From Halieaceae bacterium (lineage in GTDB: Bacteria; Pseudomonadota; Gammaproteobacteria; Pseudomonadales; Halieaceae): 64,000 nucleotides of DNA. A program made the translations under genes and the position numbers. Below the pieces are notes generated by a model that was given only the letters and a program-made list of their open reading frames with translations, had not been told where the DNA came from and did no database searches. Shown here in pieces: positions 11,033 to 53,771 of this stretch. Location: positions 1-64,000 of the forward strand of contig JAPOQD010000180.1 in assembly GCA_026710905.1 (NCBI GenBank). The letters are read 5' to 3'. How positions within the stretch are numbered: the stretch's first letter is position 1; every line of letters begins with the position of its first letter.

Positions 11033-11041
11033 GAGAACAAC

Positions 11042-28569: not shown

Positions 28570-28770
28570 GTAATCGGCGCCGCCAAAAGAAGTGGGTGTC
28601 CTGTATACCCCCCCCTCCTGTATACAGACGAAACGGGACACCCATCATTTTCAAGACGAAACGGGACACCCATCATTTTCAAGACCTATCAGAACAACAA
28701 TCTGCGCCGCCGAAAGAGGTGGGTGTCCTGTATTAGCCCTGTAGGTGTCCTGTATTAGCCCTGTATTAGC
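28541..28770. repeat. Dispersed palindromic repeat, copies 3 and 4
   Basis: Copy 3 (about 28541-28605) is a full unit: GGGACACCCATCATTTCAAG, then ATCGGCGCCGCC, then GTGGGTGTCCTGTATA. Copy 4 (about 28630-28770) has two tandem left arms, one centre, and a right arm followed by extra GTGTCCTGTATTAGCC fragments. Both are in the same orientation. Copy 3 overlaps the exonuclease 3' end. Confidence 0.85.
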
Positions 28771-34368: not shown

Positions 34369-35637
34369 CTAACCGGCGTTATTGTAGAACAGACCGTCGT
34401 AGAGGAATGCCGGCTCGATCGCACCGCAGTCCCGCTCGCTCACGCCGGCACGCCGCATCTCCGCATGCCAGTCTTCGCGGACGGTGTGCACGACCTGCTC
34501 GAATACTGCTTCGGCCTCGTCCTCTTCCAGCAAAAACCGCCCATGACCGCTCAGAAGATTGGTCCTGTTCGCGTAGCGCCCGAAGCGGCCGCAACTCATG
34601 GCGAGGTCGCGCCGTTCCCGGGACAGCGCCGGCATGGGCGTCAAGTCGAAGGCCGGACTGAGACGCCACTGCCGTCCCTTCGCGAGTATCGCGTGATTGC
34701 GCGGGTGATCGTCCAGGTTGGAGACCGCCGCGTTGAAGCACATCCGGGCGAACAGTTCGCGCAGATCGTCACCCGGTCTCGCGCTTGCACGGCGGATTTC
34801 GTCCGCCAGCAGAAGATAGGACCAGTCGCCGTGGCCGTGGAACCTTTCGTCACTACGCAGCAGCGTCATGGCGCTCGCCATACGATGGCGGAGATAGCCG
34901 GCATCCGTCCGCTCGCGGTCGAACCGGCGCACAAGCAGCACATCGCGTTCACCGACGGTAACGATACGGCTGTCGGGGACATTCAGGCCGCATGCCCGGG
35001 CGAGGCGGAGCAAGCCATGCTCGACGCGCGGCTGGTTCCATCGGTCGCCGCCATGACCGAACTTGGCGATCCAGAGCCCGCTCTCGTCTTCCACCACCGC
35101 CTTGGGACGGGCCCCGCCCATTGAGGTACTGAGCTGAAGCAACTCTTCGGCCCGCTCTTCGACGGGTCCCGCGTGTTCCCCGCCGTCGTCGAGGATCACA
35201 TCTGCCGCGCGCTGGAGGTCTTCGAGGTTCAAGGTCTGGTTGAACCGCCGCTTCGGGCCGGGAGGCTCGGCGCCAGGACCGAAGCCCAATGCACCTGCGC
35301 GGTCGTCCGGCCCCTGCATCAGGTAGTCGAACTCCGCGAGTTCGGCCAGGCCGGCCTTGCGTTGTATCAAGCGCCGCCCCCAGAAATCCGGCATCGAATC
35401 CCGGATCGCGCCGAAGAAGCCATCCATCCGGGCGGTTTCGTAGGCTTGGCCGGAGAGGCGCAGCTCGACCGGATCGAGCTCGACCGCATCGTCCCGCTCG
35501 CGGTACGAACGCCCGTACACGAACTCGCCGACCCCTCCGGTTCCCTCATCGATCCATCGAAAACGGCCCGCCGTCACGAACTCCGTCGCGCCCGGCAGCA
35601 AGATGTAGACGAAGCACTCGCGCTCAGAAGTCATCAC
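34369..35637 (-). CDS. hipA: HipA-like serine/threonine kinase toxin
   Basis: A 422-residue HipA-family kinase. It shows STSMGGARPKAVV (substrate/P-loop-like segment), a Lys in LWIAKFGH, the catalytic loop NLDDHPRNHAIL, and the metal-binding SPAFDLTPM in DFG position. HipA kinases phosphorylate aminoacyl-tRNA synthetases or other targets and cause growth arrest; target unknown here. All key residues are present. Its start overlaps hipB by 14 bases. GC is visibly higher than in neighbouring islands, which suggests separate transfer. Confidence 0.88.
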   Translation of the reverse strand: MMTSERECFVYILLPGATEFVTAGRFRWIDEGTGGVGEFVYGRSYRERDDAVELDPVELRLSGQAYETARMDGFFGAIRDSMPDFWGRRLIQRKAGLAELAEFDYLMQGPDDRAGALGFGPGAEPPGPKRRFNQTLNLEDLQRAADVILDDGGEHAGPVEERAEELLQLSTSMGGARPKAVVEDESGLWIAKFGHGGDRWNQPRVEHGLLRLARACGLNVPDSRIVTVGERDVLLVRRFDRERTDAGYLRHRMASAMTLLRSDERFHGHGDWSYLLLADEIRRASARPGDDLRELFARMCFNAAVSNLDDHPRNHAILAKGRQWRLSPAFDLTPMPALSRERRDLAMSCGRFGRYANRTNLLSGHGRFLLEEDEAEAVFEQVVHTVREDWHAEMRRAGVSERDCGAIEPAFLYDGLFYNNAG

Positions 35638-35965
35638 TCAGCGCCCCGCGCCGGTGCGCTCTCCTGGGGCTGTGCGCGCGTTCAAGGGCTTTGCCTTCCT
35701 CGTCCCGGTCCGGGTCGGCCACCTCGCGCATCTGGCCCAGCAGGCCCAGCGCCCACAGCGCGCCCAGATAGACCGCTATACCGGTCGTCGGCTTACCTCT
35801 TTCGACATCGGCCACCACGAACCGGGAGACGCCCATGCGCGCCGCCAGCTCGGCCTGGGGAAGCCTGCGGCGCAGCCGCGCTGTGCGTATGCGCCGCCCC
35901 AGCCGTTCCAGTGCTTCCTCGACACCGGCCGGGGGTGAGGCAGCGATTTTTGTTGGCCTTGGCAT
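35624..35965 (-). CDS. hipB: HipB-like HTH antitoxin
   Basis: A 113-residue XRE-type regulator. The helix-turn-helix is RLPQAELAARMGVSRFVVADVERGK (about 34-58). A charged tail (DRDEEGKALERAHSPRRAHRR) may cover HipA. It is upstream of and overlaps hipA, the normal order for hipBA, and likely represses its own promoter through the palindrome at 35978-36000. Confidence 0.85.
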   Translation of the reverse strand: MPRPTKIAASPPAGVEEALERLGRRIRTARLRRRLPQAELAARMGVSRFVVADVERGKPTTGIAVYLGALWALGLLGQMREVADPDRDEEGKALERAHSPRRAHRRGALSDDF

Positions 35966-36060: not shown

Positions 36061-36191
36061 GTATAAAGGGACACCCACCACTTCAAGATAAACAATTGGG
36101 GGTATAAAGGGACACCCACCACTTCAAGATAAACAAATGGTGCTTCCATAAGAGGTGGGTGTCCTGTATTGGCCCTGTCCTGTATTGGCCC
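36061..36191. repeat. Dispersed palindromic repeat, copy 6
   Basis: Two tandem left arms (TATAAAGGGACACCCACCAC, starting about 36062 and 36103), a degenerate centre, and right arm AGGTGGGTGTCCTGTATTGG (about 36152-36171) with an extra CCTGTATTGGCC. Same orientation as the rest. Confidence 0.8.
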
Positions 36192-36784: not shown

Positions 36785-36820
36785 AAGGGCCGGTGGCACT
36801 TGCGAACATTTCCGCAGGGC

Positions 36821-36900
36821 GAAACAGGACACCCATCATTTCAAGATAAGTAATCGGCGCCGCCAAAAGAGGTGGGTGTCCTGAATTAGCCGCATTGGCC
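36821..36900. repeat. Dispersed palindromic repeat, copy 7
   Basis: Full unit: GAAACAGGACACCCATCATT (about 36821-36840), ATCGGCGCCGCC, then GGTGGGTGTCCTGAATTAGC (about 36871-36890). Confidence 0.85.
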
Positions 36901-38120: not shown

Positions 38121-38193
38121 GAAAGGGACACCCATCATTTCAAGAATAATCAGAAAAATAATCGGCGCCGCCAAAAGATGCGGGTGTCTTTTA
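38121..38193. repeat. Dispersed palindromic repeat, copy 8
   Basis: GAAAGGGACACCCATCATTTC (from about 38121), ATCGGCGCCGCC, then GATGCGGGTGTC (to about 38188). The right arm has diverged (GCGGGTGTC instead of GTGGGTGTCC). Confidence 0.75.
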
Positions 38194-38225
38194 CTGACCG
38201 GAAAGAGAGATTGTTCCGGCGCCTG

Positions 38226-39503: not shown

Positions 39504-40161
39504 TCACCTCGGGAAATGTTTTCCCGGAGTTTTCGAGGGGATGTGGCGGCTATTGGGCGATTTTTGCTTATTAATCTGGAAAATACAATACCTTAATGCG
39601 GAAAATACACTATCTTAATGCGAGAATTACACCCCTTGAAGAGCCCTTAAACTTGCGCGTTGCTCGGGCTGGCAGCCTGTCGGAGTTGGGCTTTCATAGA
39701 ACGGCAAAACACACGGCGAAACGGGATGCTCATCATTTCAAGAAAAATCAGAAAATAATATGCGTCGCCAAAAGAGGTGGGTGTCCTATATTGGCTGTAT
39801 CTTCTGTGTACACAGCATTCGGACCAAATCTGGATCTGACTTTAGTTTTCGGCACCTAAATTCCTGACGGCACAAGATACCAAGCCGTCAGAATCAAGCT
39901 CGTTCCAGGATAAACATGCGTTCTACAACGGATACCACATCATTCCCCAGAAATGCTGTAGGAGTCCCCGCACCGAAAAAATCGAAAGACTGAAACAGGA
40001 GCACATAAGCTATCCTGTATAATATTCCATCAAGCCATTGGCAATTAGTGAGAATCTGCCTGTTATCGTATATGGCCTTCTTTCAGAATATCAGGTAAGT
40101 TCCTTTGTCTCTGCTACATACAGAGAAAGATTTATGGCCTTGAGGATTAGTTCGATTAATC
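39504..40161. repeat. Gene-free gap with 22-base tandem and repeat copy 9
   Basis: 658 bases without a clear gene. It contains two tandem 22-base units (39579-39600 and 39601-39622, differing at two positions, ending CTTAATGCG), about 75 bases upstream of the ATPase start. It also holds repeat copy 9 at about 39716-39796 (GGGATGCTCATCATTTCAAG, right arm GAGGTGGGTGTCCTATATTG). The rest is AT-rich and probably holds promoters of both flanking genes. Confidence 0.6.
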
Positions 40162-41067
40162 ATGATGGAAAGATACTTCAGCGACCGTGATGGACAGCCG
40201 GAACGCCCGACGTTGATTACTATAACACCGACCGTCTGGAGAGGGCTCACCGCGACAATCCGGAAACGATTGAGTAATAATTCATTCGCTGCTGGTTTTC
40301 CCAAAAAGTGTATAGACGATTGCGGTCCCTACAGTACAGACGAGCAATCATTTTGGGACGCCGTGACTGGAGAGATACCGGATCTGGATGAGGGGGCCAG
40401 TATTCTGTATAAACCGGATCCCCCTCCTCTTCATGTCGTTATGGATATGATCGAATTTTGCTGGGATTACGTTGGACAGCCAACAAGACATAGTTATCAT
40501 AAATATTTCGATCATCATCATCTAATCTTTGACGAAGAAGCTGGGAAGTTGGAGTTTCAGGGAGATATTAATCAAATATTCAGACGCAACGATATTGCAT
40601 TTGAATTAACAGAAGATGGAACTGTTCAACGCTTGCTTGAGCCTGAGTTCGCACAAATTGTACATGCGAGATATCGGACTGGAGATGACATATTGGACTC
40701 AATGATCGAAACCGCGTGTCAGAAATTCATGAGTCCAGATAGAGTGATTCGCCAGGAGTCGTTGGAAAGTCTGTGGGATGCCTGGGAGCGAATTAAAACC
40801 ATAAATGAACAGGACAAACAAGAAGGGATAACTGAACTGTTGGACCGTATTTCCGGTACTGATAATCCGATATTCAGGACTGCTCTGGAAGATGAGGCAA
40901 CGGCTTTGACAACGTTAGGAAATACATTACGGATTCGACACTCTGAAACCAGTCAGGAACCGCTGAGTTGTATAGAACATATGGACTACATATGGCGTCG
41001 TATGTTTTCTCTACTCTACTTGGTCTTGCGCGAAATCACGAATGATGCGGCTTATGGGCCAAAATAG
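40162..41067 (+). CDS. AbiJ-N-terminal-domain-like protein, orphan
   Basis: A 301-residue soluble protein. The middle (VMDMIEFCWDYVGQP, then HHHLIFDEEAGKLEFQGDINQIF and RRNDIAFELTEDGTVQRL) resembles the AbiJ_NTD4-type domain of abortive-infection proteins; the C-terminal half is alpha-helical with no HEPN-type RNase motif that I can see. Two adjacent Met codons begin the frame, with no clear ribosome site. AT content is higher than in neighbours, a sign of transfer. It lies next to a broken IS3. Confidence 0.45.
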   Translation: MMERYFSDRDGQPERPTLITITPTVWRGLTATIRKRLSNNSFAAGFPKKCIDDCGPYSTDEQSFWDAVTGEIPDLDEGASILYKPDPPPLHVVMDMIEFCWDYVGQPTRHSYHKYFDHHHLIFDEEAGKLEFQGDINQIFRRNDIAFELTEDGTVQRLLEPEFAQIVHARYRTGDDILDSMIETACQKFMSPDRVIRQESLESLWDAWERIKTINEQDKQEGITELLDRISGTDNPIFRTALEDEATALTTLGNTLRIRHSETSQEPLSCIEHMDYIWRRMFSLLYLVLREITNDAAYGPK

Positions 41068-41207: not shown

Positions 41208-41534
41208 ATGACGACGAGAAAGACGTATATGAAAGAATTCAAACTTGACGCGGACCGGCTGGTGACTGAGCGGGGCTATGCGCGAGCCGAGGCGGCCAGA
41301 AATCTGGGCATCAACGCCAATATGCTGGGTCGCTGGGTGCAGGAGCACCTAGCGGACAAAGGCGCGGCTTTCCGCGGCAAGGGGAAGTTGACGTCAGAGC
41401 AGCAGGAACTGCGCAGGCTCCAGGAGGAGAACCGCAAGCTTAAGATGGAGCGGGAGATCTTAAAAAAGGCGGCTGTCCGAATTCACTTGACCAGGTCAAA
41501 CAATCTGTGCAATCTTCAGAAATTTTTTGAATAA
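41208..41534 (+). pseudogene. Truncated IS3-family transposase OrfA
   Basis: The first ~88 residues are a typical IS3 OrfA: HTH (YARAEAARNLGINANMLGRWVQEH) then a leucine-zipper (LRRLQEENRKLKMEREILKKAA). From about 41473 the normal continuation (TAFFAKE-type end, then OrfB) is replaced by unrelated sequence and a stop. No OrfB exists in the window. AGGAG precedes the ATG, and the left terminal region probably lies at about 41150-41200. The break is 70 bases before the DISARM-like locus. Confidence 0.85.
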
Positions 41535-41545
41535 GGGGTTAAACG

Positions 41546-43804
41546 TTGGAGATTCCCGCTAACAGCGACGCAGCTTTGGTGTCGCTTTTTCTTAGCTTCG
41601 CATTAGTCGACGATGTGCTTCATCCCAAAGAGATGGAGGTTATTAGACAGGTCTGCAAAGAGCTCAGCATCCCTCCAGATGTAGTTTCCAATGTTTTTCA
41701 CAACTATGTACCGGATGGAGAATTCGCCTCATCGTGCAAACGGGCCATGGCTAACATTACGGATGAAACCTTACAGAACAAAGCATTTATAACGCTTTGT
41801 GATATCGCGGCAGCCGATGACGTATTCCATAAAAACGAGCGATTATTCCTCTCTCTAGCCTTCGAGCAATGGAGTGTGGAGGCCGCGGCCAGCCTGGACG
41901 AATTCGAGTGGGATGACCAGCAAAGAGAGGTTGTCGAGGCCCCGGAATTTGCAAGGCTTGAAGTTGATGCAGGTCCCGGAATGGGCAAGACCGCCGTCGC
42001 CTGCTCTAGAGTATCTAAGTTGATAGAAGCTGGCGTAGAACCGACCAACATTTGGTTGCTTAGTTTCACTCGTACGGCAGTACAGGAAATTCGGGAACGC
42101 ATAGAATTGTTTGCTGAAGAGTCTCATTCGGTGTTGGGCGTTAAGATCGGCACGATTGATTCGCGAGCGTGGCGTATTCGTCTCGGTTTTTCCGAAGGTG
42201 AAGTAGAAAAGCTTTTCGGTAGCTACGATGCTAGCATTCTTAGCGTAATTGATCTTATAGATAACAGTCCACGTGAGATTCGTGAATTCTTGGAGTCACT
42301 TGAACACGTAATCATCGACGAAGCTCAAGATATTACCGGGGTCCGAGCACGGCTGCTCCTCAGAATGCTCAAGTTACTACCCTCAAGGTGCGGCGTGACG
42401 ATTTTCGTAGATCCTGCACAGGCTATATACGGATTTACCACCGATGGGGAAGACGTATTGGAAGAAGACCGCGTAAATTTAATCGATTTGTTAGAAGAAG
42501 ATTTTAACCCGGAATTTGTTCGAAAGGAGTTACGTACGATCCACAGAACCGATGTCCCAAATTTAATAGAGCTTATAGAAGATCTCAGGCTCGACATCTA
42601 TGTCAACGAAGATATCGACGCTGAAGCATTCAATAGAAGGCGCGAGGTTATTTTAGAAAAGGCAAATGAGCGTGTTGACCAATTCGATGCAAAAGAGCTC
42701 GTGAAGTTTCAAAATGCGCTTGTGCTATTTCGTAGGCGTTCCGAAGTTCTCATGGCCTCCTCATTCGCAAACAGTGAAGGAATCCCACACCGAATTCGCA
42801 TGTCGGGCCTTCCTCAAATCATCGAACCTTGGCTTGGTCAGCTGCTTTCCAACTTTTCAGATACCACAATTGATAAGAACGAATTTATCAAACTTTGGGA
42901 CAAGCAAGAGTACTTTTTATTGACCGAGGGTACCGACGTAGAAGAGGCCTGGAACCTATTGGCCGTTCTTGGCCAAAAAAACGGTGCAGTACACATTTCA
43001 GAGGTAAGAAAGAAGCTCGCTCGCACTCCACCGGATATCAACGCTTCGATTCCCGATTTGGGAACGTCCGGCCCGATCATCGGAACCATACACGCTTCAA
43101 AGGGGAGAGAGGCCAATGAAGTGGTCTTGCGGCTGCCAGAGGTCAAACACAAAAAGAGTTCGGGTGCGACGCTTGATGAAGAATCCCGTGTCATGTTCGT
43201 CGGGGCGACCAGAGCGAAATCCAAGCTTTACGTGGGCAATGGTTTTGTGCGAGCACAATTCGCTCCGTCGCTGGAGAGCGGACGCTGTTTCATGAAGACT
43301 AAGGCATCAAGTCCTCCAGCGGCACAAGTGGAAATCGGCAGGCAAACCGACATCGATCCATTTTCCTTTGTCAGCAAAAAATACCACACACAAGAAGATG
43401 ATGTGTCTCAGATACAGAGACAGCTTGCCTCTATGGCCCAAAATGCGCCCGTTGAGTTAGGAGCCCGTTTAGTTCCAGCGCACAACTTTAATTACCAAAT
43501 TTGGACGACCTTTGACGGGGATAACCCAGCGATACCGATCGGCTATTTCAACGGCAGTCTGAACCAAGACCTATTTCAAATTCTAAATCGTATTGCTAAA
43601 TACCCGGATACTTTCCGTCCACCGAATTCAATTCCCCACTTCTATCTAATGGGTGTTACTTGCTTTGCGGTCAGTGAAGATGATCCACAACTGATGGATG
43701 TTCATGAGCCTTACGCTTCGACCGGCATCTGGTTGGTTCCAGTCATTATTGGATTCCCCAAGGTGACGTTTATGACCAAAAACCGAGCTAGGAGACAGTG
43801 GTGA
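41546..43804 (+). CDS. SF1 UvrD-like helicase with TerB-like N-terminal domain
   Basis: A 752-residue protein. Residues 1-110 form a TerB-like helical domain (two repeats around FALVDDVLHPKEMEVI and DIAAADDVFHKNERLF). It then has SF1 helicase motifs: Walker A AGPGMGKTA (about 141-149), SFTRTAVQEIRER, DEAQD (about 257), FVDPAQAIYGF, IHASKGREANEV and MFVGATRAKSKL (about 550). The C-terminal 150 residues are unassigned. The start is TTG with AAGGGG seven bases upstream. Its stop overlaps the drmA start (TGATG). It replaces the SNF2-type DrmD of class 1 DISARM in position, but it is not the same family. Confidence 0.8.
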   Translation: MEIPANSDAALVSLFLSFALVDDVLHPKEMEVIRQVCKELSIPPDVVSNVFHNYVPDGEFASSCKRAMANITDETLQNKAFITLCDIAAADDVFHKNERLFLSLAFEQWSVEAAASLDEFEWDDQQREVVEAPEFARLEVDAGPGMGKTAVACSRVSKLIEAGVEPTNIWLLSFTRTAVQEIRERIELFAEESHSVLGVKIGTIDSRAWRIRLGFSEGEVEKLFGSYDASILSVIDLIDNSPREIREFLESLEHVIIDEAQDITGVRARLLLRMLKLLPSRCGVTIFVDPAQAIYGFTTDGEDVLEEDRVNLIDLLEEDFNPEFVRKELRTIHRTDVPNLIELIEDLRLDIYVNEDIDAEAFNRRREVILEKANERVDQFDAKELVKFQNALVLFRRRSEVLMASSFANSEGIPHRIRMSGLPQIIEPWLGQLLSNFSDTTIDKNEFIKLWDKQEYFLLTEGTDVEEAWNLLAVLGQKNGAVHISEVRKKLARTPPDINASIPDLGTSGPIIGTIHASKGREANEVVLRLPEVKHKKSSGATLDEESRVMFVGATRAKSKLYVGNGFVRAQFAPSLESGRCFMKTKASSPPAAQVEIGRQTDIDPFSFVSKKYHTQEDDVSQIQRQLASMAQNAPVELGARLVPAHNFNYQIWTTFDGDNPAIPIGYFNGSLNQDLFQILNRIAKYPDTFRPPNSIPHFYLMGVTCFAVSEDDPQLMDVHEPYASTGIWLVPVIIGFPKVTFMTKNRARRQW

Positions 43805-46800
43805 TGAGTGCTCGTCGGAGACTACTCGAGAGGCTGAAAACCGATTTGATTGGGCCTTCGTATGGCGAAAGAGAACAAATCGAAGACCGGCCATCAGATC
43901 GGTACCTTACAGGAATTCTTTTCCCACAGAATTTGGAGATGACCGATGAAGAGGATGAAAAACTCGAAGAGGTCCAAGCTGGCAAGGTAGCAGATGCGGA
44001 TACAGGCGCTAATGGGAAAGTGTCGATATTTCGGTCGATAAGGCCGGCTACGGCGGGAATTTCATTTGCATTGTCTCACACTGGTAGTGCACCTTCCTTG
44101 ATCACCATCGCAGTTTCCGTTGGGCAATATTCGAAGGTGGAGTTGAGCGAAACTGACGTAAACGGTGGCGCCATCCAAGGCGAACAGCCACAAGAACATA
44201 CAACAACCGAGGCAAGCTTCCAAGTCACCTCGAAGGCTTCAAAAAAATGCAAATGGTATTGGAGCCGGGAACACAAAGTTTGTTCACGTACCGTCGCACT
44301 CGAACTGGGTATTCAGGAGATCGATCTCGGGACCATGGACGATGCGGGCTCCGGGACCGTCCCAGGGTTGGCCCTTTTCATCAAGACGGTAAGTATAGGT
44401 GGCAAAATTGCCGTGACAGTTCAGGCGATCAATCAGAATAGGCACGATGCCTCCTCGACTAGAGATGAGGTCGAACAACAGACTTTTTTCCAGTTCCAGA
44501 TGAACATCTCGCCGGTTGCCCCGACGGAACTCGTACCGAGGCCGGTCCTCAATGTCCCAAACGACGAAGATGCCAAGACTTCCGCCCTTATCTACAGAGA
44601 CGCTGTCGAATACGCTACCGGCCATACATGCTCGGCGGATTGGATAGTCAGCGACGAAAGCGTAGTAAGTACGGTTTCCTCGGCCTGGATGCCGGAAAAA
44701 ATCGTAAAGTCGGTGGATCCCTCCGGAGACCCCATTTTCAAAACGACTTACGACAAGCGAGGGCTAGGGATGCCGACCGCCCAAAGGCTCTCGGTTGCAA
44801 GTGAATCTGAACTAAGAGCAATTTTTTCTGGCCTTACAGACGCATATGAGAATTGGCTTCAACAGGAAGCTGCAAAGACAGAAGTTCTTGGTTCCGATGC
44901 ATTGAGAAATCGAGCTGAGATACACCTGTCTCGGTGCGGCGAGGCCTTGGAGAGAATGCGATTCGGGGCATCTCAAATAGTCGCGGATGACCAGGTTCGG
45001 CGGGCCTTCCAATGCGCGAACGCGGCGATGCAAATCCAGGCTGCGTGGGGACAAAATATTCCGTCAGGCATTTCCGAATCTCCTGGGTCCCAATTGGAAT
45101 GGCGACCGTTTCAGCTAGGTTTCGCTTTAATGTGTATCCGATCTTTTCAAGAGCCAAGTCATGACGATAGATCAATCTTGGACCTGATTTGGTTTCCTAC
45201 CGGAGGCGGCAAGACCGAAGCCTACCTTCTTGTAGCGGCCTTCGCGATGTTCTACCGAAGACTCATAAATCAAGAGAAAGCCCTTTGTTACGGAACCAAC
45301 GTATTGATGCGATACACGCTCAGGACATTGACCATCCAACAATTCCAGAGGGCAGCCGCGTTGGTCTGCGCATGCGAAAGGGTTCGGGAAGGCGAATGGA
45401 ATCAAGACGATTCGATGGGAGGGCAAAAGTTTTCCATTGGGCTTTGGGTCGGACAAGCCAGCACTCCGAACAACTCCCAAATGGCACTCGAAGTCCTCGG
45501 AACGGACAGTGAATCCACTCCCTGTCAAATCGAACAATGCCCGGCGTGCCGGAGAGATCTCGTGTGGAAACCCTCGGAGGATGAGACCCGGGTCATATGC
45601 CGATGTGAGACCGAAGATTGCATCTTGGCGAAATGGGACGAATTGCCAATTCTGACCGTTGACGACCAGATTTATCGTACCCCCCCGACGATGTTGATCG
45701 GTACGGTTGACAAGTTCGCCCAAATCGTCCGCCGCGAAGAAGTGGGTGTGCTGTTCGGCCTGGGATCAGACGCCGATCCCCCCGACCTGATCATACAAGA
45801 TGAGCTCCACTTAATTTCAGGACCGTTGGGAACATTGGCTGGAATCTACGAGACGATAATAGACCGTTTATGCACCAAGGATGGAATCGTTCCGAAAGTA
45901 ATCGGCTCCACTGCCACCATTCGCAGAGCTGAACAACAGGTGAACGCCCTATTTCAACGACGAGCTTTCCAATTTCCACCACCTGTTATCGATGGAGAGA
46001 ACTCAGGATTCTCTAAGATCGACGTGGTGTCCGACGGGCGTCTCTATGTCGGCCTTACGACATCCGGACGAACTGATAAGTACATGATGCAAGCGGTCTG
46101 CGCTTCTCTTCTGCAAGCGGTTGTTGATCCTTCAATTAACGATGAAGACAGGGATCCTTATGGAACACTTGTGGCATATTTCAATTCATTGAGAATTTTA
46201 GGCGGTGCTTTGGTCGCCATGCAGGACGACGTTCCCAAGTCGATCGGCGCCATCGCACGGAGAAGGGGAGAGAGACCTCGTACTCTTTCGGAGCCGGAGG
46301 AGATGACCAGCAGAAAGGCCTCATCCGAAATACCCAAAGTGCTCCGCCAACTAAATATCCGGTTCGGTGACGCGGGTTCCATAGATACGTTGCTGGCAAG
46401 CAACATGCTGAGCGTTGGCGTGGACATACCGCGGCTGGGATTGATGGTGGTCAACGGTCAACCCAAGACAATGTCGGAATATATTCAGGCGACTAGCCGT
46501 GTAGGACGCCAGCAGGTCCCCGGTCTTATCGTTGTCATCTACAACAACAGTAAACCCCGGGATAAGGCCCACTACGAAACATTCGAAACATGGCACGCAA
46601 GCCTTTACCGAAGCATTGAGGCCACCAGTGTCACGCCGTTTGCATCAAGGGCGAGAGACAAAGCATTACACGCTGCCTTAGTCGGCTTGGCGAGACATTT
46701 GATCCCGAATCTTTCTGGACCGACTTTGTCGGCGGAAAAGAGAATGGAAATCGAAGATAAAATATTGCCCATCCTCTTTTCCCGCATTGAAAACGTCGAC

Positions 46801-47055
46801 GAGCGAGAGTTGGGGGCGGCTCAACGGCAATTGGAGAGACTTCTCTATGAATGGGAAGATAGAGGAATTTTGAAAAGCTATTGGAACGATTTCTCCTTTA
46901 AGACCAGCCTTCTGATTTCTGCCGAGAAAGCGGCGGCGAGAAAAGAATCAGGATATTCCGAGACTGCTGCCTGGGAAACTCCCAACTCGATGCGCAATGT
47001 CGAACCAGGGGTCGATTTCCAACTCTGGGAATCGGCAGAACTTGAAAGGGGCTAG
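43804..47055 (+). CDS. drmA: DISARM-type helicase DrmA
   Basis: A 1083-residue SF2-like helicase. The N-terminus RRRLLERLKTDLIGP..YLTGILFPQ is typical of DrmA. Motifs: Walker A FPTGGGKTE (about 462), a CPAC..CRC..C zinc-like insert (about 579-606), DELH (about 665), STAT (about 702), SVGVDIPRLGLMVVNGQP and QATSRVGRQ (about 880-902). DrmA with DrmB forms the DNA-binding core of DISARM. ATG 43804 with AGGAGA nine bases upstream overlaps the previous stop. DrmB follows after 4 bases. Confidence 0.9.
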   Translation: MSARRRLLERLKTDLIGPSYGEREQIEDRPSDRYLTGILFPQNLEMTDEEDEKLEEVQAGKVADADTGANGKVSIFRSIRPATAGISFALSHTGSAPSLITIAVSVGQYSKVELSETDVNGGAIQGEQPQEHTTTEASFQVTSKASKKCKWYWSREHKVCSRTVALELGIQEIDLGTMDDAGSGTVPGLALFIKTVSIGGKIAVTVQAINQNRHDASSTRDEVEQQTFFQFQMNISPVAPTELVPRPVLNVPNDEDAKTSALIYRDAVEYATGHTCSADWIVSDESVVSTVSSAWMPEKIVKSVDPSGDPIFKTTYDKRGLGMPTAQRLSVASESELRAIFSGLTDAYENWLQQEAAKTEVLGSDALRNRAEIHLSRCGEALERMRFGASQIVADDQVRRAFQCANAAMQIQAAWGQNIPSGISESPGSQLEWRPFQLGFALMCIRSFQEPSHDDRSILDLIWFPTGGGKTEAYLLVAAFAMFYRRLINQEKALCYGTNVLMRYTLRTLTIQQFQRAAALVCACERVREGEWNQDDSMGGQKFSIGLWVGQASTPNNSQMALEVLGTDSESTPCQIEQCPACRRDLVWKPSEDETRVICRCETEDCILAKWDELPILTVDDQIYRTPPTMLIGTVDKFAQIVRREEVGVLFGLGSDADPPDLIIQDELHLISGPLGTLAGIYETIIDRLCTKDGIVPKVIGSTATIRRAEQQVNALFQRRAFQFPPPVIDGENSGFSKIDVVSDGRLYVGLTTSGRTDKYMMQAVCASLLQAVVDPSINDEDRDPYGTLVAYFNSLRILGGALVAMQDDVPKSIGAIARRRGERPRTLSEPEEMTSRKASSEIPKVLRQLNIRFGDAGSIDTLLASNMLSVGVDIPRLGLMVVNGQPKTMSEYIQATSRVGRQQVPGLIVVIYNNSKPRDKAHYETFETWHASLYRSIEATSVTPFASRARDKALHAALVGLARHLIPNLSGPTLSAEKRMEIEDKILPILFSRIENVDERELGAAQRQLERLLYEWEDRGILKSYWNDFSFKTSLLISAEKAAARKESGYSETAAWETPNSMRNVEPGVDFQLWESAELERG

Positions 47056-47059
47056 CACA

Positions 47060-48910
47060 ATGGCCAAAAACTTCTTAGGTGAAGTCAGAAGGACACAAGT
47101 ACTTGAATACGGTCCCGGCGCCATAATCGATTTTCGCGCCGGGGCGCGCGGCGGTGGTTCCGTTTCCGTGGTTGCGGCTGGGCTGGAACACTGGGATAGG
47201 ACTGCGAAACCTCCTTTTCCAGCGAACCGCCAGGCGATTTCCGAACCGAGGCTGGAGCGACGGCTTGGCGTCAAGGGTTTCCGGTTACCGCCCGTCGACG
47301 ACCGAGATGAAGTTGGCGATCCAAAAAAATCATGGTTGGTAGGTGCTCGATTTCCTACATGGCTCCAGTGTCCTTCCTGCAACGAAATCAAACCGGCTCG
47401 GAAGTGGGACAAAGAACCCGGAGATCCATCCAGGTGGTGCCATCGGTGCTCGTCGGGCGATAGGCGTGTCCATGCTGTCCCTACCCGTTTCGTGGTCGCT
47501 TGTGAGAATGGCCATCTCGACGAATTTCCATGGTGGCGGTGGCTATCGAGAACCGCCCATAAGCCGGATTGCAAAGGCCTCGGAAGGATGAAAATGGAGA
47601 ACCGAGGTTCTATAGGGTTGGCGGGCCTGTTCCTCGTTTGCATGGAGTGCGGAGCAAGCGTCTCGATGGAGGGGGTCTTCAGCCAGGATTCTCTTAGGGG
47701 ATTAGGTTGTAAAGGGCATAGGCCTTGGCTCGGCGAGCAAACCGTGGATTGTGGCGCAAGCCCGCGGGTGCTTCAAAGGGGTGCTTCCAACCTCTACTTC
47801 CCCCTCACTGTTTCCGCGCTCAGCATTCCGCCCTGGTCGGATAAGCTTCAGGAATTAATCGGTATCAGGTGGTCGGAAGTAGTAGATGCTACTAGACGCG
47901 ATCGGGAAGTTCTCCTGCGACATTTTCTTGATTCATTTCAAAATAACCTTGGGATGACCTTGGACGAAGTGCTCGATGAAATCGAACGAAGGGTCGCATA
48001 CATTGACAACCCTGAAAGAGAAAATCTGAGGCAGGATGAATACAAGAATCTGATAGAAGGAAAGGCCGGTCAGCCGCAAATCGAAAACACCCACACGGAG
48101 TTCGAGGTGCACCAACAGCAGGTTCCGGATAAATTGATACCATACATAGCCAAGCTAGCCAAAGTCGTTCGATTGAGAGAGGTCCGAGCGCTTAAATCCT
48201 TTACGCGCATTTATGAACCCGCCACTACCGACGATCCAGGTCGGGCGAAACTGTGCGATTTGTCGCTTACGCCGTTGAATTGGCTTCCCGCTGTTGAAGT
48301 TAGAGGTGAAGGAGTTTTCATCGCTCTAAACGAGGATCGGGTTGCGGCATGGGAAGCCCTTCCGGAGGTTTGCGACCGTGCTCGACAAGTGGACGAGGCT
48401 TTTAAAAAGTCGCTTGTTGGGAAACACGGTGAGGGCGCTTCGGGTGAATTCAATATATCGGCGCGTTTGCTTTTGCTCCATTCTCTTTCACACGCTCTGA
48501 TGAAGCACTTATCTTTGGAGTGTGGGTACGAAACCGCTTCAATACGTGAACGGATATATGATAAGACTTCGGGATCGGAGATGTCGGGAGTTTTGATTTA
48601 CACATCTTCAAGCGACTCCGAAGGAACGCTTGGTGGATTAGCGAGGCAGGCCGAGCCATATTTATTCGAGCCCATATTCATCGGCGCCCTGGAATCAATC
48701 GGTTGGTGTTCTTCGGACCCTCTCTGTATAAACGGGATCACAAGCACTTCCGAAAGCTACAATCTGGCAGCCTGCCATTCCTGTATGCTGGTGCCCGAAA
48801 CCTCGTGTGAAATGTTCAACCGCTTTCTGGATCGAATGATGCTCATTGGATCCAGCATGGACGGCGTCGAGGGGTACTTCGAGGGAGTGAGCGGCGACTC
48901 CAAAGCCTAG
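47060..48910 (+). CDS. drmB: DISARM protein DrmB (DUF1998)
   Basis: A 616-residue protein with N-terminal zinc-like sites (CPSCNEIKPARKW, WCHRC, CENGHLDEF, CMECG) and a C-terminal DUF1998 domain (LLHSLSHALMKHL, YTSSSDSEGTLGGL, CSSDPLC, CHSCMLVPETSCEMFN). This is the DrmB layout; DrmB partners DrmA in DISARM. The start at 47060 has AGGGG upstream; a longer frame from 46997 lies inside drmA and is unlikely. Confidence 0.9.
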   Translation: MAKNFLGEVRRTQVLEYGPGAIIDFRAGARGGGSVSVVAAGLEHWDRTAKPPFPANRQAISEPRLERRLGVKGFRLPPVDDRDEVGDPKKSWLVGARFPTWLQCPSCNEIKPARKWDKEPGDPSRWCHRCSSGDRRVHAVPTRFVVACENGHLDEFPWWRWLSRTAHKPDCKGLGRMKMENRGSIGLAGLFLVCMECGASVSMEGVFSQDSLRGLGCKGHRPWLGEQTVDCGASPRVLQRGASNLYFPLTVSALSIPPWSDKLQELIGIRWSEVVDATRRDREVLLRHFLDSFQNNLGMTLDEVLDEIERRVAYIDNPERENLRQDEYKNLIEGKAGQPQIENTHTEFEVHQQQVPDKLIPYIAKLAKVVRLREVRALKSFTRIYEPATTDDPGRAKLCDLSLTPLNWLPAVEVRGEGVFIALNEDRVAAWEALPEVCDRARQVDEAFKKSLVGKHGEGASGEFNISARLLLLHSLSHALMKHLSLECGYETASIRERIYDKTSGSEMSGVLIYTSSSDSEGTLGGLARQAEPYLFEPIFIGALESIGWCSSDPLCINGITSTSESYNLAACHSCMLVPETSCEMFNRFLDRMMLIGSSMDGVEGYFEGVSGDSKA

Positions 48911-48921
48911 GAAAATTCCGA

Positions 48922-50622
48922 ATGCATAAACCAGGTATGTTTCCGCAGACTATTCTTCGAAAAATACTCGAAGATCCAAGGCGGCAAGCGGAAATTATTG
49001 TCTATAACCAGCTGCGCGATCAGCTTGAAGACTTCACCGTTTTCTACCATTGCCCTTGGTACGACGAGAATGCTGCACGCGGCTCAAGAGACGGCGAAGC
49101 CGATTTTGTAGTGGCCCACCCGCGCTGGGGATTCGTGGTGCTCGAGGTCAAAGGAGGTGTCATTTCTCGGGACGAGAATACGAGGATTTGGCGAAGCAGG
49201 AACAAACAGGGAAAAGTCTTCGAAATCAAGAATCCGGTCGAACAGGCCTTAGTCTCTAAACATGTGATTCTGAGGAAGCTCCAAGATGCATGGAGAGGAA
49301 AGGCCCCATTTATTAGGGCAAAGCACGGTGTCATCTTTCCGGAGTCCGGCCAGCCTAGGAACTCGAATGACTTGGGTGCCGATATGCCCTTGGAAATTTT
49401 CGCATTCGCCGAAGATATGGATAACCTTGGAGCAAAGGTCGTAAAAATCCTCGTAACGGAGCCAGAGCAATCGGAGACACGATATGGAAACTTGGGTGAG
49501 AAAGGGATCGAAATACTTCACCAATTATTCAATCGTGGATTTGAACTCGATTTGAGTCTTGCCGCCTTACTCGCGGATGATGAAAACAAGATTCTCCAAT
49601 TGACCCAACAACAGAACACCTACCTGGATCTTACTAAGACACAGAGGAGGGCTATATTTACGGGTGGGGCCGGAACCGGAAAAACGACCCTTGCTATCGA
49701 GAAATCGAAACGGTTGGCGCAAGAAGGGGCGAGGGTATTATTGTTGTGTTTCAATAATGCACTATCCGAATATCTACGTACTCAGGTGAAGGATCTTTGC
49801 AACATTACAGCCTTTTCGTTTCATCAGTTTTGTCTTTCAATGATCGCCAGGGCCAGAATAAGTTTCGATTACAAGGAAGATAAAGATCGTCGATATTTCG
49901 ATGAAAAACTTCCAGAAGCGTTACTTGCGGCTTTATCTGCTGATGACAACCTTCGTTACGACTCGATAGTCGTCGATGAAGGACAGGATTTCCTTGAAAG
50001 TTGGTGGGAACTTCTGTTGCTTACTTTGAAGGACGTGGATGGAACATTCTTCGTTTTCAAAGACGATAATCAACGAATTTACAGGAAAACATCACAAAAA
50101 CTTCCAGGTTTTGAGACGGATCCCCTACATCTTTCCGTAAATTTCAGGAACACTCAATCAATATTTCACGCTACCGAGAAATATTACAAGGGCGGCGACA
50201 TACGTCCTGGAGGTCCTGAAGGAAAAGAGATCCAATGGTATCCAATAAAACCGGGGAGAGAGGCCAAAATGATCGAAAAAGCAATAAACAGATTGATTAA
50301 CATCGAGGGTATTCCTGAGCAAGATATAGCCGTCCTCTGCGCATGCGCCCTTGAAAAAAGTGCTCTCGCTCCAGGTGATTCGATTGGACGATATGGAACG
50401 GCACCCAGCGAAAATTTCTCGGGAGAATCAATACGCTTCGACTCCATCCATAGGTTTAAAGGCCTTGAAAGTAAGGTCGTAATTCTGACCGATATGGATG
50501 GTGCGGTGGCATCGAATGAGCTCATGTATGTTGGGCTCTCAAGAGCCCGCTTGCTCTTGCTTGTCGTCGCGTCTGAGGTGACGATCGGGAAATTGAAAAA
50601 TGAGATCTATGGGAAAAATTGA
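48922..50622 (+). CDS. NERD nuclease fused to UvrD-like helicase
   Basis: A 566-residue fusion. The N-terminal NERD domain (about 25-165) has the PD-(D/E)xK-type site GEADFVVAHPRWGFVVLEVKGG (D59, E74, K76 region). The SF1 helicase has Walker A GGAGTGKTT (about 247-255), VDEGQDF (about 350), FVFKDDNQRIY, VNFRNTQ, IHRFKGLESKVV and MYVGLSRARLLL. It follows drmB by 11 bases on the same strand, so it belongs to the operon. It takes the place where DrmC (a PLD protein) stands in classical DISARM, and may supply the nuclease (inference). Confidence 0.87.
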   Translation: MHKPGMFPQTILRKILEDPRRQAEIIVYNQLRDQLEDFTVFYHCPWYDENAARGSRDGEADFVVAHPRWGFVVLEVKGGVISRDENTRIWRSRNKQGKVFEIKNPVEQALVSKHVILRKLQDAWRGKAPFIRAKHGVIFPESGQPRNSNDLGADMPLEIFAFAEDMDNLGAKVVKILVTEPEQSETRYGNLGEKGIEILHQLFNRGFELDLSLAALLADDENKILQLTQQQNTYLDLTKTQRRAIFTGGAGTGKTTLAIEKSKRLAQEGARVLLLCFNNALSEYLRTQVKDLCNITAFSFHQFCLSMIARARISFDYKEDKDRRYFDEKLPEALLAALSADDNLRYDSIVVDEGQDFLESWWELLLLTLKDVDGTFFVFKDDNQRIYRKTSQKLPGFETDPLHLSVNFRNTQSIFHATEKYYKGGDIRPGGPEGKEIQWYPIKPGREAKMIEKAINRLINIEGIPEQDIAVLCACALEKSALAPGDSIGRYGTAPSENFSGESIRFDSIHRFKGLESKVVILTDMDGAVASNELMYVGLSRARLLLLVVASEVTIGKLKNEIYGKN

Positions 50623-50722
50623 TCCAATATGGGTAGAGGCGAATTGTGGAGCAGCTTGGTGGGCGCGGTCATGTGCATTGAAGACCTCCACGCACGGCCT
50701 TATCGAAGACGATGTCATCTAG

Positions 50723-51439
50723 TCATTTTTCATTTTGCCGTATGAGGTTCCTCAACTCGTCCATTGCCAACCAAGGATGTTTAGCGTGGATCATCCGATG
50801 GCAGTTGGCGCAGACCAGAGCCAGTTCATTAATCCGCGTTATGTCACCTGACCTTAGTGTGTGCAGTGGCTTCATATGGTGGCACTCGATAAAGCCATTC
50901 CCCCGTGGGCCGTAAGCATCCTCGAAATCGAAGCTACACACCTCACATGCAAGCCGGCCTCGAGCCGCAAGCACCGAGGCCTTCTTCTCCTTCACCAAAT
51001 GTCTATTCCTCTCACGTGCAATATGAGTACGGGTGAGCAAATATCCTTCAGGTGCTTCTTGTATTACCGGTTCAATAATAATGGAGGCCATGTTGGTCTG
51101 TTCGATCGTTTCGCGTATAGCCGACGCAGTTTGCCGCAACCGCTCTCGATCCGCCGCGAACTCTCTCCATACGTCTTTGTCCGCCTTCCCGCTCGCCGTC
51201 AATCCGACTCCGGGGTATGTCTGGTCGAGGCTGCGGAAGTTCATGAGCTTCATAACGACGCTAGCGATTGATCGGTAATTTTCATTCCGGTTTTCGCCCA
51301 GGAATGGGGGAATCTGCCTTAACGTTCGGCTTAGATCCTGAGCTTCCGGTAGATTAGGAGATGGGGTCCTCCTCTCGAGCGCGAGATACGTATCCAAGGC
51401 TAGAATTAACTCTTCACGTCCCCATGGCCTATTTCTCAT
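50723..51439 (-). CDS. HNH endonuclease (McrA-like)
   Basis: A 238-residue protein whose C-terminal HNH site has CEVCSFDF, ECHHMKPLHT and LALVCANCHRMIH, so the zinc cysteines and catalytic histidines are intact. The N-terminal half is an unassigned specificity or oligomerisation region. HNH proteins of this type include methyl-directed (5mC) endonucleases such as McrA relatives. It is divergent from vsr with 68 bases between them and converges on the helicase operon. Confidence 0.85.
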   Translation of the reverse strand: MRNRPWGREELILALDTYLALERRTPSPNLPEAQDLSRTLRQIPPFLGENRNENYRSIASVVMKLMNFRSLDQTYPGVGLTASGKADKDVWREFAADRERLRQTASAIRETIEQTNMASIIIEPVIQEAPEGYLLTRTHIARERNRHLVKEKKASVLAARGRLACEVCSFDFEDAYGPRGNGFIECHHMKPLHTLRSGDITRINELALVCANCHRMIHAKHPWLAMDELRNLIRQNEK

Positions 51440-51507
51440 TTTTTCACGTCCGATCTGTTCTTGAACCGATTCATTATGTTATACACGAGAGGTAAGGGTA
51501 TCCACTA

Positions 51508-51942
51508 ATGGCCGACAAAGTATCTCCTGAAGTTAGATCCGCGATGATGTCGGCTGTGAAGGGGAAGAACACCTTTCCGGAAAGGGTCGTGCGCTCACGC
51601 GTGTTCGCTGAGGGTTTCCGCTATCGTCTTCATGTGAAGAGGCTTCCGGGGTCGCCGGACATGGTGCTCGCCCGCTATCGCACGGCGGTATTCGTACACG
51701 GCTGCTTCTGGCATGGGCACGAATGTTCCCGAGGCAAGCGACCAGAGACCAATCGGACGTTTTGGAATCGAAAGATCGACCGAAATATCGATCGCGACCG
51801 CGAGGCTGTCACTGCCCTTGAAAACGTCGGGTGGACCGTTCACACACTCTGGACGTGCAAGTTGGAAGAGGGACTGACGCGGCTCTTGAAGGCACTTAAG
51901 AAGCAACGTTGCGCTCTTAATCGCCGTAACATATCGAATTGA
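51508..51942 (+). CDS. vsr: Very short patch repair (Vsr) endonuclease
   Basis: A 144-residue Vsr endonuclease. It shows SPDMVLARYRTAVFVHGCFWHGHEC (catalytic Asp and His region), TNRTFWNRKIDRNIDRD and GWTVHTLWTCKLE. It nicks at T:G mismatches formed by 5-methylcytosine deamination and normally travels with a cytosine-5 methyltransferase. Here the methyltransferase lies just downstream on the opposite strand and the 3' ends overlap by 26 bases. All key residues look intact. Confidence 0.93.
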   Translation: MADKVSPEVRSAMMSAVKGKNTFPERVVRSRVFAEGFRYRLHVKRLPGSPDMVLARYRTAVFVHGCFWHGHECSRGKRPETNRTFWNRKIDRNIDRDREAVTALENVGWTVHTLWTCKLEEGLTRLLKALKKQRCALNRRNISN

Positions 51943-53167
51943 CAAGATGTTTCGCATAGAACGCGGCAAGCTTGGGTGGAACAGCGTTTCCGATCATCCG
52001 CGCAATTGGTTCAATCTGGTCGACAGGATAAAAGACATAGTCCTCCGTGAACGATTGAAGGATAGCCGCTTCTCTGAGGGAAATACCGCGTGCCTGTTTT
52101 TGGTCGAAGTGGCCGAAGCGTCCGTTTGAGATACTGTGGCATTTGGTTGTTATGGTCGGTGAAGGCCGGTCGGGGTGCATTCGGGTGTAAACGTCCGAGA
52201 AACAACGCTGACCGAGGCGTTCGTTTACGTCTCGATGGCACTCGAGCGAGAGGTCTCCGTAGAGTGTATTCTCCATATATTCGTTGGATTGCCCCGGCTT
52301 TGCCACCTCAATGCGCAGTTGGTTCAGTTCGCTCAGGCTTCTGGCCCGGTGGTTAGGCACGTCGGGGTGGAGCTCGCCCGCCTTAATCGAAGGCAGGTGG
52401 CCGATGGCCTGCTTAACGGATATCAGGTCCGCGTCCGGATCAAACGCAGGGACAAGAAACTCGTTTGACCATGGGTCTGACATTTGATCTTTACCCACTA
52501 AGGCACGTCTCGCTGCAAGCAGGACAGAACGCTTTCTAAGTTGCGGTATCCCGAACTTAGAGGAACAGACAACCTCCGAGCCGGTAATGAACCCTAGGCA
52601 ATCAAGGCCATTTCGGAAACTCTCCCAAACACCGCCATATCGGGGATTGTTTATACCGGCCACGTTTTCCGACAAGACAAGGTCGGGCCTAAACCGACGC
52701 ACGAACTTGAGGGTTTCTCGTAGGAGATTAGAGTCACGTTTGCGAGCCGCCTTCCGTTCAGGTGTCAATTCCTTTCGCGACAACCGCGTGAAGGGCTGAC
52801 AGGGTGCGCATATAGCGAAGAGAAGCGGCAGGTCGGGGTATTGTTCACGATAGTGGCCGATGAGAGAGGCTAGCTGCTCAATGAGATCCTTCTGTCGTCC
52901 GTCTGGATAGTCTTTGCTCCTCGGGAATATGTCCAAACTGAGGTAGTGCGGGTCGCCATGATCGAGGTAAATGTTGACGTTGTTATCTACGAAGGTTTTC
53001 TCACATCGGGGATCTTTATCAATGCCTGCAATCAGATAACCGCCGGCGTCTATCAAACCTCTTGCGGTGCCGCCGGCACCGCAAAAGAAGTCCACCGCTA
53101 GAAACTTTGGTCCGGTTTTCAACCCTCGTCGCCTACCCTGCACGAAATCCGTTTGGGCGTCTTTCAT
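51917..53167 (-). CDS. DNA (cytosine-5) methyltransferase
   Basis: A 416-residue C5 methyltransferase. Motif I FFCGAGGTARGL, motif IV APCQPFTRLSR with the catalytic Cys, motif VI SENVAG, motif VIII FGIPQLRKRSVLL, motif IX PSPTITT and motif X IGNAVPPKLA are all visible. It protects host DNA; DISARM class 2 also uses a 5mC enzyme (DrmMII). The start at 53167 overlaps the stop of the HTH gene (ATGA), so the two form an operon; the longer frame upstream is a shadow of that gene. The target site cannot be read. Confidence 0.93.
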   Translation of the reverse strand: MKDAQTDFVQGRRRGLKTGPKFLAVDFFCGAGGTARGLIDAGGYLIAGIDKDPRCEKTFVDNNVNIYLDHGDPHYLSLDIFPRSKDYPDGRQKDLIEQLASLIGHYREQYPDLPLLFAICAPCQPFTRLSRKELTPERKAARKRDSNLLRETLKFVRRFRPDLVLSENVAGINNPRYGGVWESFRNGLDCLGFITGSEVVCSSKFGIPQLRKRSVLLAARRALVGKDQMSDPWSNEFLVPAFDPDADLISVKQAIGHLPSIKAGELHPDVPNHRARSLSELNQLRIEVAKPGQSNEYMENTLYGDLSLECHRDVNERLGQRCFSDVYTRMHPDRPSPTITTKCHSISNGRFGHFDQKQARGISLREAAILQSFTEDYVFYPVDQIEPIARMIGNAVPPKLAAFYAKHLVNSICYGD

Positions 53168-53364
53168 CCGTCTCCGCCTTCGATCTGCATTCTGATCCGG
53201 CGAATGTCCTCGTCGGAAAATATGCGCCAGCCACGATGATCCTTGTAGACGTCGTCGACACGTCCCTCGTGAAGCCACCGCAAGAGGGTCTGTCGCGAGA
53301 CGCGGAGTCTCTGTGCAGCCTGTGCCGTCCGATAGTCCGTGTGGCCCTTGATGTTGTTAGACAC
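53164..53364 (-). CDS. Excisionase/MerR-type small HTH regulator
   Basis: A protein of about 66 residues with a winged HTH of the excisionase/helix_turn_helix_17 type (YRTAQAAQRLRVSRQTLLRWLHEGRV..GWRIF..EDIRRI). GTG at 53364 is chosen because the longer frame starts at a TTG that is the -35 box of the promoter itself. It is cotranscribed with the methyltransferase and probably acts as its controller by binding the palindrome at 53396-53411. Confidence 0.75.
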   Translation of the reverse strand: MSNNIKGHTDYRTAQAAQRLRVSRQTLLRWLHEGRVDDVYKDHRGWRIFSDEDIRRIRMQIEGGDG

Positions 53365-53395
53365 GACGTGTGTGTTCCGTTCTTGCTGTCTGAAG

Positions 53396-53433
53396 GTATA
53401 CTTAAGTATACTCACACTACTACATATAGTCAA
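53396..53433 (-). promoter_or_regulatory. Promoter with palindrome over the -10 box
   Basis: On the minus strand TTGACT (53433-53428), a 17-base spacer and TATACT (53410-53405) form a near-consensus sigma70 promoter. The perfect 16-base palindrome GTATACTTAAGTATAC (53396-53411) covers the -10 box. A protein bound there would block transcription of the HTH-methyltransferase operon. Confidence 0.75.
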
Positions 53434-53487
53434 AACCCTAGGTAAAACGCAATATATCGTGTGTAGCAGGGCTAGCGAAAACGCCTA

Positions 53488-53570
53488 AATAGAACACCCA
53501 TTATTTCAAGAAAAGTAATCGGCGCCGTCAAAAGAAGTGGGTGTCCTGTATTGGCGTTTCCTGTATTGGC
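53488..53570. repeat. Dispersed palindromic repeat, copy 10
   Basis: TAGAACACCCATTATTTCAAG, ATCGGCGCCGTC, then GAAGTGGGTGTCCTGTATTGG, with a second CCTGTATTGGCC. Located just beyond the HTH-methyltransferase promoter. Confidence 0.85.
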
Positions 53571-53673
53571 CGTCGCTACCGACGTAGACAAAGATGCATT
53601 ACGTAAAGTGCTGCGTGATCGGGTTGCTACTAGGCGTAAGAGCCTACTCCGCTTGATACGCAAGAAATCAGCG
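53571..53673. other. Unassigned sequence between two repeat copies
   Basis: An open frame on the + strand (..DVDKDALRKVLRDRVATRRK..) runs through this 103-base segment into copy 11. It looks like the tail of a coding sequence isolated between repeats. No family is recognised. Confidence 0.3.
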
Positions 53674-53771
53674 GCAAAACGGGACACCCATCATTTCAAG
53701 AAAAGTAATCGTCGCCGCCAAAAGAAGTGGGTGTCCTGTATTGGCGCTTCCTGTACTGGCGCTGTATTGGC
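53674..53771. repeat. Dispersed palindromic repeat, copy 11
   Basis: AAAACGGGACACCCATCATTT, ATCGTCGCCGCC, then GAAGTGGGTGTCCTGTATTGG, with trailing CCTGTACTGGC and CTGTATTGGC. Confidence 0.85.

Follow-up and report, generated by a model that had tools for sequence, protein, structure and literature searches.

The locus described here lies in a stretch of 64,000 nt (hereafter the window) from contig JAPOQD010000180.1 of a Halieaceae bacterium (GCA_026710905.1) and opens with four tightly packed genes on the forward strand. The first encodes a Rep/UvrD-type SF1 helicase of 752 aa (UvrD1; 41546..43804, TTG start) that carries a TerB domain at its N-terminus and ends in a region specific to the family. 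It is followed by a DrmA-family (YprA-type SF2) helicase of 1085 aa (43798..47055), DrmB (DUF1998/MZB; 47060..48910, 616 aa from the likely start in an ORF that opens at 46997) and a fusion of a NERD nuclease with an SF1 (UvrD/Schlafen/UPF1-like) helicase, 566 aa in length (NERD-UvrD; 48922..50622). Next come, in mixed orientation, an HNH endonuclease of 238 aa (50723..51439, reverse strand), a Vsr mismatch endonuclease of 144 aa (51508..51942, forward strand) and a C5-cytosine DNA methyltransferase (51917..53167, reverse strand; likely ATG at 53167 in an ORF open to 53278). Both the row of four and the mixed set behind it had been read from the sequence in an earlier note, and ORFs and domains are found at the positions given there, except that the starts of DrmB and the methyltransferase are corrected to 47060 and 53167. 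Catalytic motifs are intact. The HTH gene that the note placed at the right end drops out: the ORF in question (53062-53445) has no Pfam or PADLOC match, and the sole HTH found nearby belongs to an IS3-type transposase orfA remnant upstream (41208..41534, forward strand; Pfam HTH_Tnp_1, 3.4e-13). This remnant ends 11 nt before the start codon of UvrD1; it is the boundary of the locus and lies outside the system. Given that it abuts the first core gene, expression of the core is uncertain here. The locus is made up of two modules, a four-gene core and a pair of C5 methyltransferase and Vsr.

The two central genes of the core tie the locus to DISARM. DrmA is recognized by the PADLOC DrmA profile at 6.8e-206 and narrowly misses the NCBIfam equivalog cut-off for DISARM_DrmAS (891 against 950 bits). 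The family profile is homologous to the solved Serratia DrmA (7s9v, 2.5e-222) and aligns from residue 136 of that structure, so that the N-terminal extension of the Serratia protein (about 130 residues) is absent here. An EVE-like N-terminal domain and a trigger loop are features of class 1 DISARM; at the position of the trigger loop the window DrmA has a shorter acidic stretch. DrmB is a separate gene adjacent to DrmA, as in DISARM, and matches PADLOC DrmB (2e-82), NCBIfam DrmB_fam (501 bits, above the cut-off of 240) and Pfam MZB (3e-10), with four CxxC pairs.

For the flanking core genes the relationships lie elsewhere. UvrD1 matches Pfam UvrD-helicase (73.5 bits, 2.9e-20), its Walker A (AGPGMGKT) and DEAQD motifs are intact, and its AF2 model (pLDDT 83) finds UvrD/Rep/PcrA as the best PDB matches, with AdnB lower. 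Its TerB match lies just over the cut-off (28.3 bits against 24.4; 2.3e-6) and the domain is found in just 3 of 26 aligned UvrD1-type helicases, which makes TerB a lineage-specific addition. The idea that a TerB helicase stands in for DrmD is not supported, in view of this rarity and of the DrmD-like SNF2 helicase gene that is also present in 8 of the 22 four-gene loci described below. DrmE was considered as the identity of the upstream helicase and rejected, as the DrmE profile (one PADLOC model, PDLC02636) has no match in the present genome and 11 related genomes or records. Nor did 199 genomes from the order to which L104 (Jeotgalibacillus) belongs provide a class 2 reference, and a DrmE-like candidate in Lactiplantibacillus (L287) was discarded, having neither a PADLOC or Pfam family match nor similarity to UvrD1. 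NERD-UvrD has an AF2 model with pLDDT 86 and PDB matches to SLFN11, UPF1 and UvrD. The Pfam NERD domain is detected in 21 of 24 aligned members, the window copy itself remaining below threshold; E59, D61, E75, K77, K254, D352 and E353 (NERD and helicase Walker residues) are invariant in 24 relatives.

According to the PADLOC definitions both DISARM classes need DrmC, with DrmD and DrmMI in class 1 and DrmE and DrmMII in class 2 (PMC9252829). The window shares with DISARM a DrmA and DrmB that are homologous over nearly the full length and encoded side by side, a methyltransferase nearby (of the C5 type, as DrmMII of class 2), an accessory gene upstream and a nuclease slot downstream. It differs in the content of these slots: NERD-SF1 occupies the place of DrmC and a UvrD-type helicase precedes DrmA. 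The HMM search proposed in the earlier note thus gives a divided outcome. DrmA, DrmB and DrmMII are matched, the last by the window C5 methyltransferase, whereas DrmE is unmatched and neither DrmC (or any other PLD gene), DrmD (the class 1 SNF2 helicase) nor DrmMI (the class 1 N6 methyltransferase) has a match among the genes scanned at 40.1-53.4 kb. The PLD genes of the genome are on other contigs, and PDLC02640 (DrmMI) has no match in any of 8 genomes or records. Relatedness to DISARM without DrmC therefore stands as noted. Since DrmC, DrmD, DrmMI and DrmE are unmatched and the DrmA equivalog cut-off is missed, the locus falls in neither class and we call it a DISARM-like variant.

The same arrangement is found well outside this genome. 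A plasmid search with UvrD1 reveals the identical order helicase, DrmA, DrmB, NERD-UvrD on plasmids of Azospirillum, Shinella and Rhizobium. Scanning genome contigs with a DrmA alignment yields over 580 relatives, the best 80 of which entered the survey, and viral contigs add 18. Within the combined set, genome relatives being limited to those best 80, UvrD1-DrmA-DrmB is present in 61 loci, and all four genes, overlapping or with gaps of a few bases, in 22 examined loci including the window. The 22 are spread over at least five phyla (Pseudomonadota, Bdellovibrionota, Balneolota, Acidobacteriota and Bacillota) as well as plasmids and viral contigs, and none of them contains DrmC. The four-gene order recurs far beyond chance, and the survey of drmAB neighbourhoods suggested earlier accordingly finds the expected pair of UvrD and NERD-UvrD without a PLD gene. 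These counts apply to loci that were picked by DrmA similarity and are mutually related; several contigs end within the locus, and genes were called as longest ORFs, which makes their starts approximate. Over 19 non-redundant loci the four core proteins co-diverge (Mantel r 0.87-0.92, with p=0.0005, the floor of the permutation).

Other neighbours of UvrD1-DrmAB were seen along the way. In L044, L045, L046, L049-L052, L128 and others a divergent pair lies beside it, consisting of a DrmD/DpdE-like SNF2 helicase and a protein of about 1000 residues (c10) with no Pfam or PADLOC match. The actinobacterial group is mostly preceded by a large Sacsin-like/SF2 helicase protein; in Actinomycetota loci such as L073, L077 and L100 this protein (about 1600 residues, Sacsin-like N-terminus) is followed by UvrD1-DrmA-DrmB, with a divergent HTH gene and no NERD-domain gene downstream. 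The genome of the window also has a second, fused YprA-family helicase of 1395 residues (L171, on contig C136 of G000) with neighbours of 928 and 577 residues.

It might be argued that the core is a machine for DNA repair or end processing (like MrfAB or RecBCD) and not for immunity, given the resemblance of UvrD1 to Rep/UvrD/PcrA and AdnB and of NERD-UvrD to UPF1- and Dna2-type helicases. Its distribution points the other way: in a sample of 369 genomes of the same class full-length UvrD1 is found in one only, which is the present genome, and the core is carried on plasmids and viral contigs. A single-sequence search of the viral contigs with UvrD1 gives no match, and matches are found with the UvrD1 alignment. 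Full-length homologues adjoin drmAB in the examined plasmid matches that cover most of the query and in the 5 best viral loci. Together with the homology to DISARM DrmAB, this patchy distribution makes a repair function very improbable.

In a DrmA tree of 108 rows, a single clade of 31 rows (SH-aLRT 99) takes in 20 of the 22 four-gene loci; its members belong to Pseudomonadota, Bdellovibrionota, Balneolota, Acidobacteriota and Myxococcota. L105 and L126 are placed near the actinobacterial DrmA group. As the tree comes from a quick search and contains several long branches, deep placements are unsure. Seven of the eight DrmC-bearing loci are outside the clade. The exception, L121 (viral contig IMGVR_UViG_3300025034_000893), reads UvrD1-DrmA-DrmB-DrmC and has DrmC exactly at the place of NERD-UvrD, which indicates that the nuclease slot is exchangeable and agrees with the earlier proposal that NERD-UvrD sits in place of DrmC. 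It is a natural swap of the slot, and one that is found in a viral contig. A NERD-SF1 gene comes after DrmB in 22 loci that also have UvrD1 upstream, and in a few that lack UvrD1 (Fisher p=0.0008 among the loci examined, a value that is indicative only because the rows are related). In Actinomycetota, UvrD1-DrmA-DrmB commonly lacks a NERD gene, and NERD is thus not a constant feature of the wider group. The NERD-SF1 protein is portable between contexts: relatives adjoin a NO VEIN-like protein, an EVE/AAA_5 (McrB-type) protein or a DEAD-box helicase.

The second module behaves differently from the core. The window C5 methyltransferase (Pfam DNA_methylase, 1.1e-33) has the PCQP, ENV and GNAVP motifs, and its best PADLOC model is DrmMII (210 bits, 1e-62), with MTase_II nearly equal (1.2e-58). 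Vsr is over the cut-off of TIGR00632 (143.8 bits) and matches Pfam Vsr at 1.9e-30. A single integrated DISARM subtype of six genes, in which a DrmMII-like C5 methyltransferase and Vsr are obligate and methylation is the self-mark that is read by the core, would account for the DrmMII match, for the C5 methyltransferase near 16 and Vsr near 14 of the 22 cores, and for L041, L049 and L126, where the methyltransferase points the same way as the core and lies no more than about 100 nt from it. Distances argue against it, as those of the methyltransferase and Vsr track each other (r=0.76) but not those of the core (r 0.05-0.23, p 0.07-0.29). The methyltransferases near the 16 cores belong to differing families and are not orthologous to that of the window, which is just 21-31% identical to those beside other UvrD1-DrmAB cores and shares 64% and 48% identity with genes of two further genomes; the latter pair with Vsr and adjoin an unrelated protein of about 810 residues, with no drmAB in the stretches read. 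Moreover, the stretches fetched for 6 of the 22 cores, some of them on short contigs, contain no C5 methyltransferase gene. We consider an integrated subtype unlikely, and the view of the locus as one single gene set gives way to one in which methyltransferase and Vsr diverge independently of the core.

The HNH endonuclease (Pfam HNH, 1.5e-7; C..C/HH/N.....C..CH motif intact) had been named as part of the DrmC replacement. It is not conserved beside other four-gene cores, for which reason it was rejected as the effector, and its relatives adjoin unrelated R-M genes on plasmids, for instance a SinI system on a Psychrobacter plasmid. HNH is local cargo; it is possible that it serves as the restriction enzyme of the methyltransferase module. 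In a further explanation, two unrelated systems share an island: a full type II R-M system (C5 methyltransferase, Vsr and HNH) beside a self-sufficient core. The mixed orientations here fit such a reading, as do the relatives of HNH and of methyltransferase/Vsr that occur without drmAB and the further defence genes in the window (HipBA, AbiJ-like, type I R-M). On the other hand, the window methyltransferase is the sole PF00145 gene found in the 3.7 Mb assembly and sits 1.3 kb from the core, and C5 methyltransferase and Vsr are near most cores, far above what that density predicts (though defence islands cluster such genes). Coincidence of two unrelated systems seems doubtful to us. By these comparisons the methyltransferase module is exchangeable, yet repeatedly recruited by cores.

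Overall, we think it fairly likely that the locus is a DISARM-related anti-phage system of two separable modules, a four-gene machine and an exchangeable R-M module. The judgements given for this reading, for the integrated subtype and for two unrelated systems are not mutually exclusive and need not add up to one. Sequence comparison thus suggests that we are probably dealing with a DNA-degrading anti-phage system with interchangeable R-M partners; the defence function, the direction of action, the cut by NERD and the protection by methylation are what we infer from the gene content. An autoinhibitory loop restrains DrmAB of DISARM, which binds single-stranded 5' overhangs and depends on ATPase activity, and DrmC is dispensable there (PMC9142583). 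By analogy, incoming DNA would be loaded with DrmAB at single-stranded or 5'-overhang ends and unwound by the two SF1 motors as they translocate, and the PD-(D/E)xK domain of NERD would cut it, taking the role of the PLD protein DrmC. The operon would in this way bring its own nuclease-motor instead of DrmC, plus an extra SF1 motor upstream. In the other module the C5 methyltransferase would mark host DNA, Vsr would repair the T:G mismatches left by deamination of 5mC, and HNH may act as the cutter. The module would then supply the information on self and non-self, and possibly also the DNA ends that are degraded by the core. More tentatively, and with the odds against it in our view, the four genes might constitute a separate and as yet unnamed class within the DISARM superfamily, which does not need a methyltransferase of its own and degrades DNA from its ends, including ends cut by neighbouring restriction systems, while R-M modules are swapped freely.

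Several known systems resemble the locus in part. Bell et al. (2025) mention 'many uncharacterized DISARM-like' classes in a tree of YprA helicases, undescribed and unnamed in the text (PMC12458937); these probably contain the present DrmA clade, although the text gives no four-gene set with NERD-UvrD. Bell (2024) reports a DISARM-like system associated with McrBC, and as an ATPase gene and a DUF2357 (McrC-type) gene lie beside the core in L038 and L064, overlap with that set is possible. TALON and ARMADA likewise combine a YprA-family helicase with extra helicases, TALON including a NERD nuclease and ARMADA type II a GajB-like helicase (PMC12458937). However, the TPR-CSD and TBP genes of TALON are missing among the genes scanned here, the SNF2 and PglX genes of ARMADA were not found here, and in contrast to both the DUF1998 part has a gene of its own, which agrees with DISARM. 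Accessory proteins of DRT systems in PADLOC are also similar: the RT-associated NERD-helicase (RTasNERD-Hel) is the best profile match of NERD-UvrD (230 bits, 1.6e-68) and the RT-associated helicase (RTasHel) matches UvrD1 weakly, with no match to a reverse transcriptase among the genes scanned at 40.1-53.4 kb. UvrD1 shares TerB with Shango and Bunzi, which are reported to contain it (PMC10952713), but the domain is fused here and rare among the relatives. The SF1 motor resembles GajB of Gabija, whereas GajA is not present at the locus. In the open-licence literature searched we found no published name for this gene set, though one may exist elsewhere. The suggestion of a distinct, undescribed subtype survives for the recurring pair of UvrD and NERD-UvrD around drmAB, and is not supported for a single set that includes the flanking genes.

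The route by which DISARM destroys DNA is open, as DrmC can be dispensed with and is frequently absent, and a borrowing of host nucleases had to be suggested by Bravo et al. (PMC9142583). Here we describe a recurring DrmAB operon with its own predicted nuclease, whose catalytic residues are invariant, and a close relative that has DrmC in the same slot; consequently, the effector question becomes testable through one gene. That the core and the methyltransferase module are independent also matters for the question of whether methylation is read by DISARM-like systems at all. The same four genes, apparently unnamed, are present in distant bacterial phyla.

The surroundings of the locus are rich in defence-related genes. 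A gene for an AbiJ_NTD4 protein (40162-41067, forward strand; match to the PADLOC candidate PDC-S32 at 1e-47) immediately precedes the IS3 remnant and the core, and a HipA-like protein with an HTH partner (34369-35965, reverse strand) forms a toxin-antitoxin-type pair adjoining the island. Further to the left, at 4019-13725, a type I R-M set (WYL regulator, HsdR, HsdM, HsdS) precedes two more genes, one for an AAA_15-type ATPase and one that is uncharacterised. A genome-wide repeat of 70-90 nt with palindromic ends (GGACACCCAYCATTTCAAGA ... GTGGGTGTCCTGTATTGGC) lies between cassettes in which toxin-antitoxin, R-M and further defence genes abound; it has 62 matches on many contigs of the assembly and a uniform orientation within every contig that holds several copies. 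The assembly contains no Y1/RAYT transposase, so that an assignment to REP/RAYT elements was rejected, and no attC-type core was recognized in the repeat. Window copies are found at 28538-28740, 36065-36189, 36818-36890 and 38122-38196, and, by position, others flank the block of AbiJ, DISARM-like and methyltransferase genes: one to the left (39714..39795, forward strand) and, in the same orientation, two to the right (53482..53570, forward strand, and 53672-53760).
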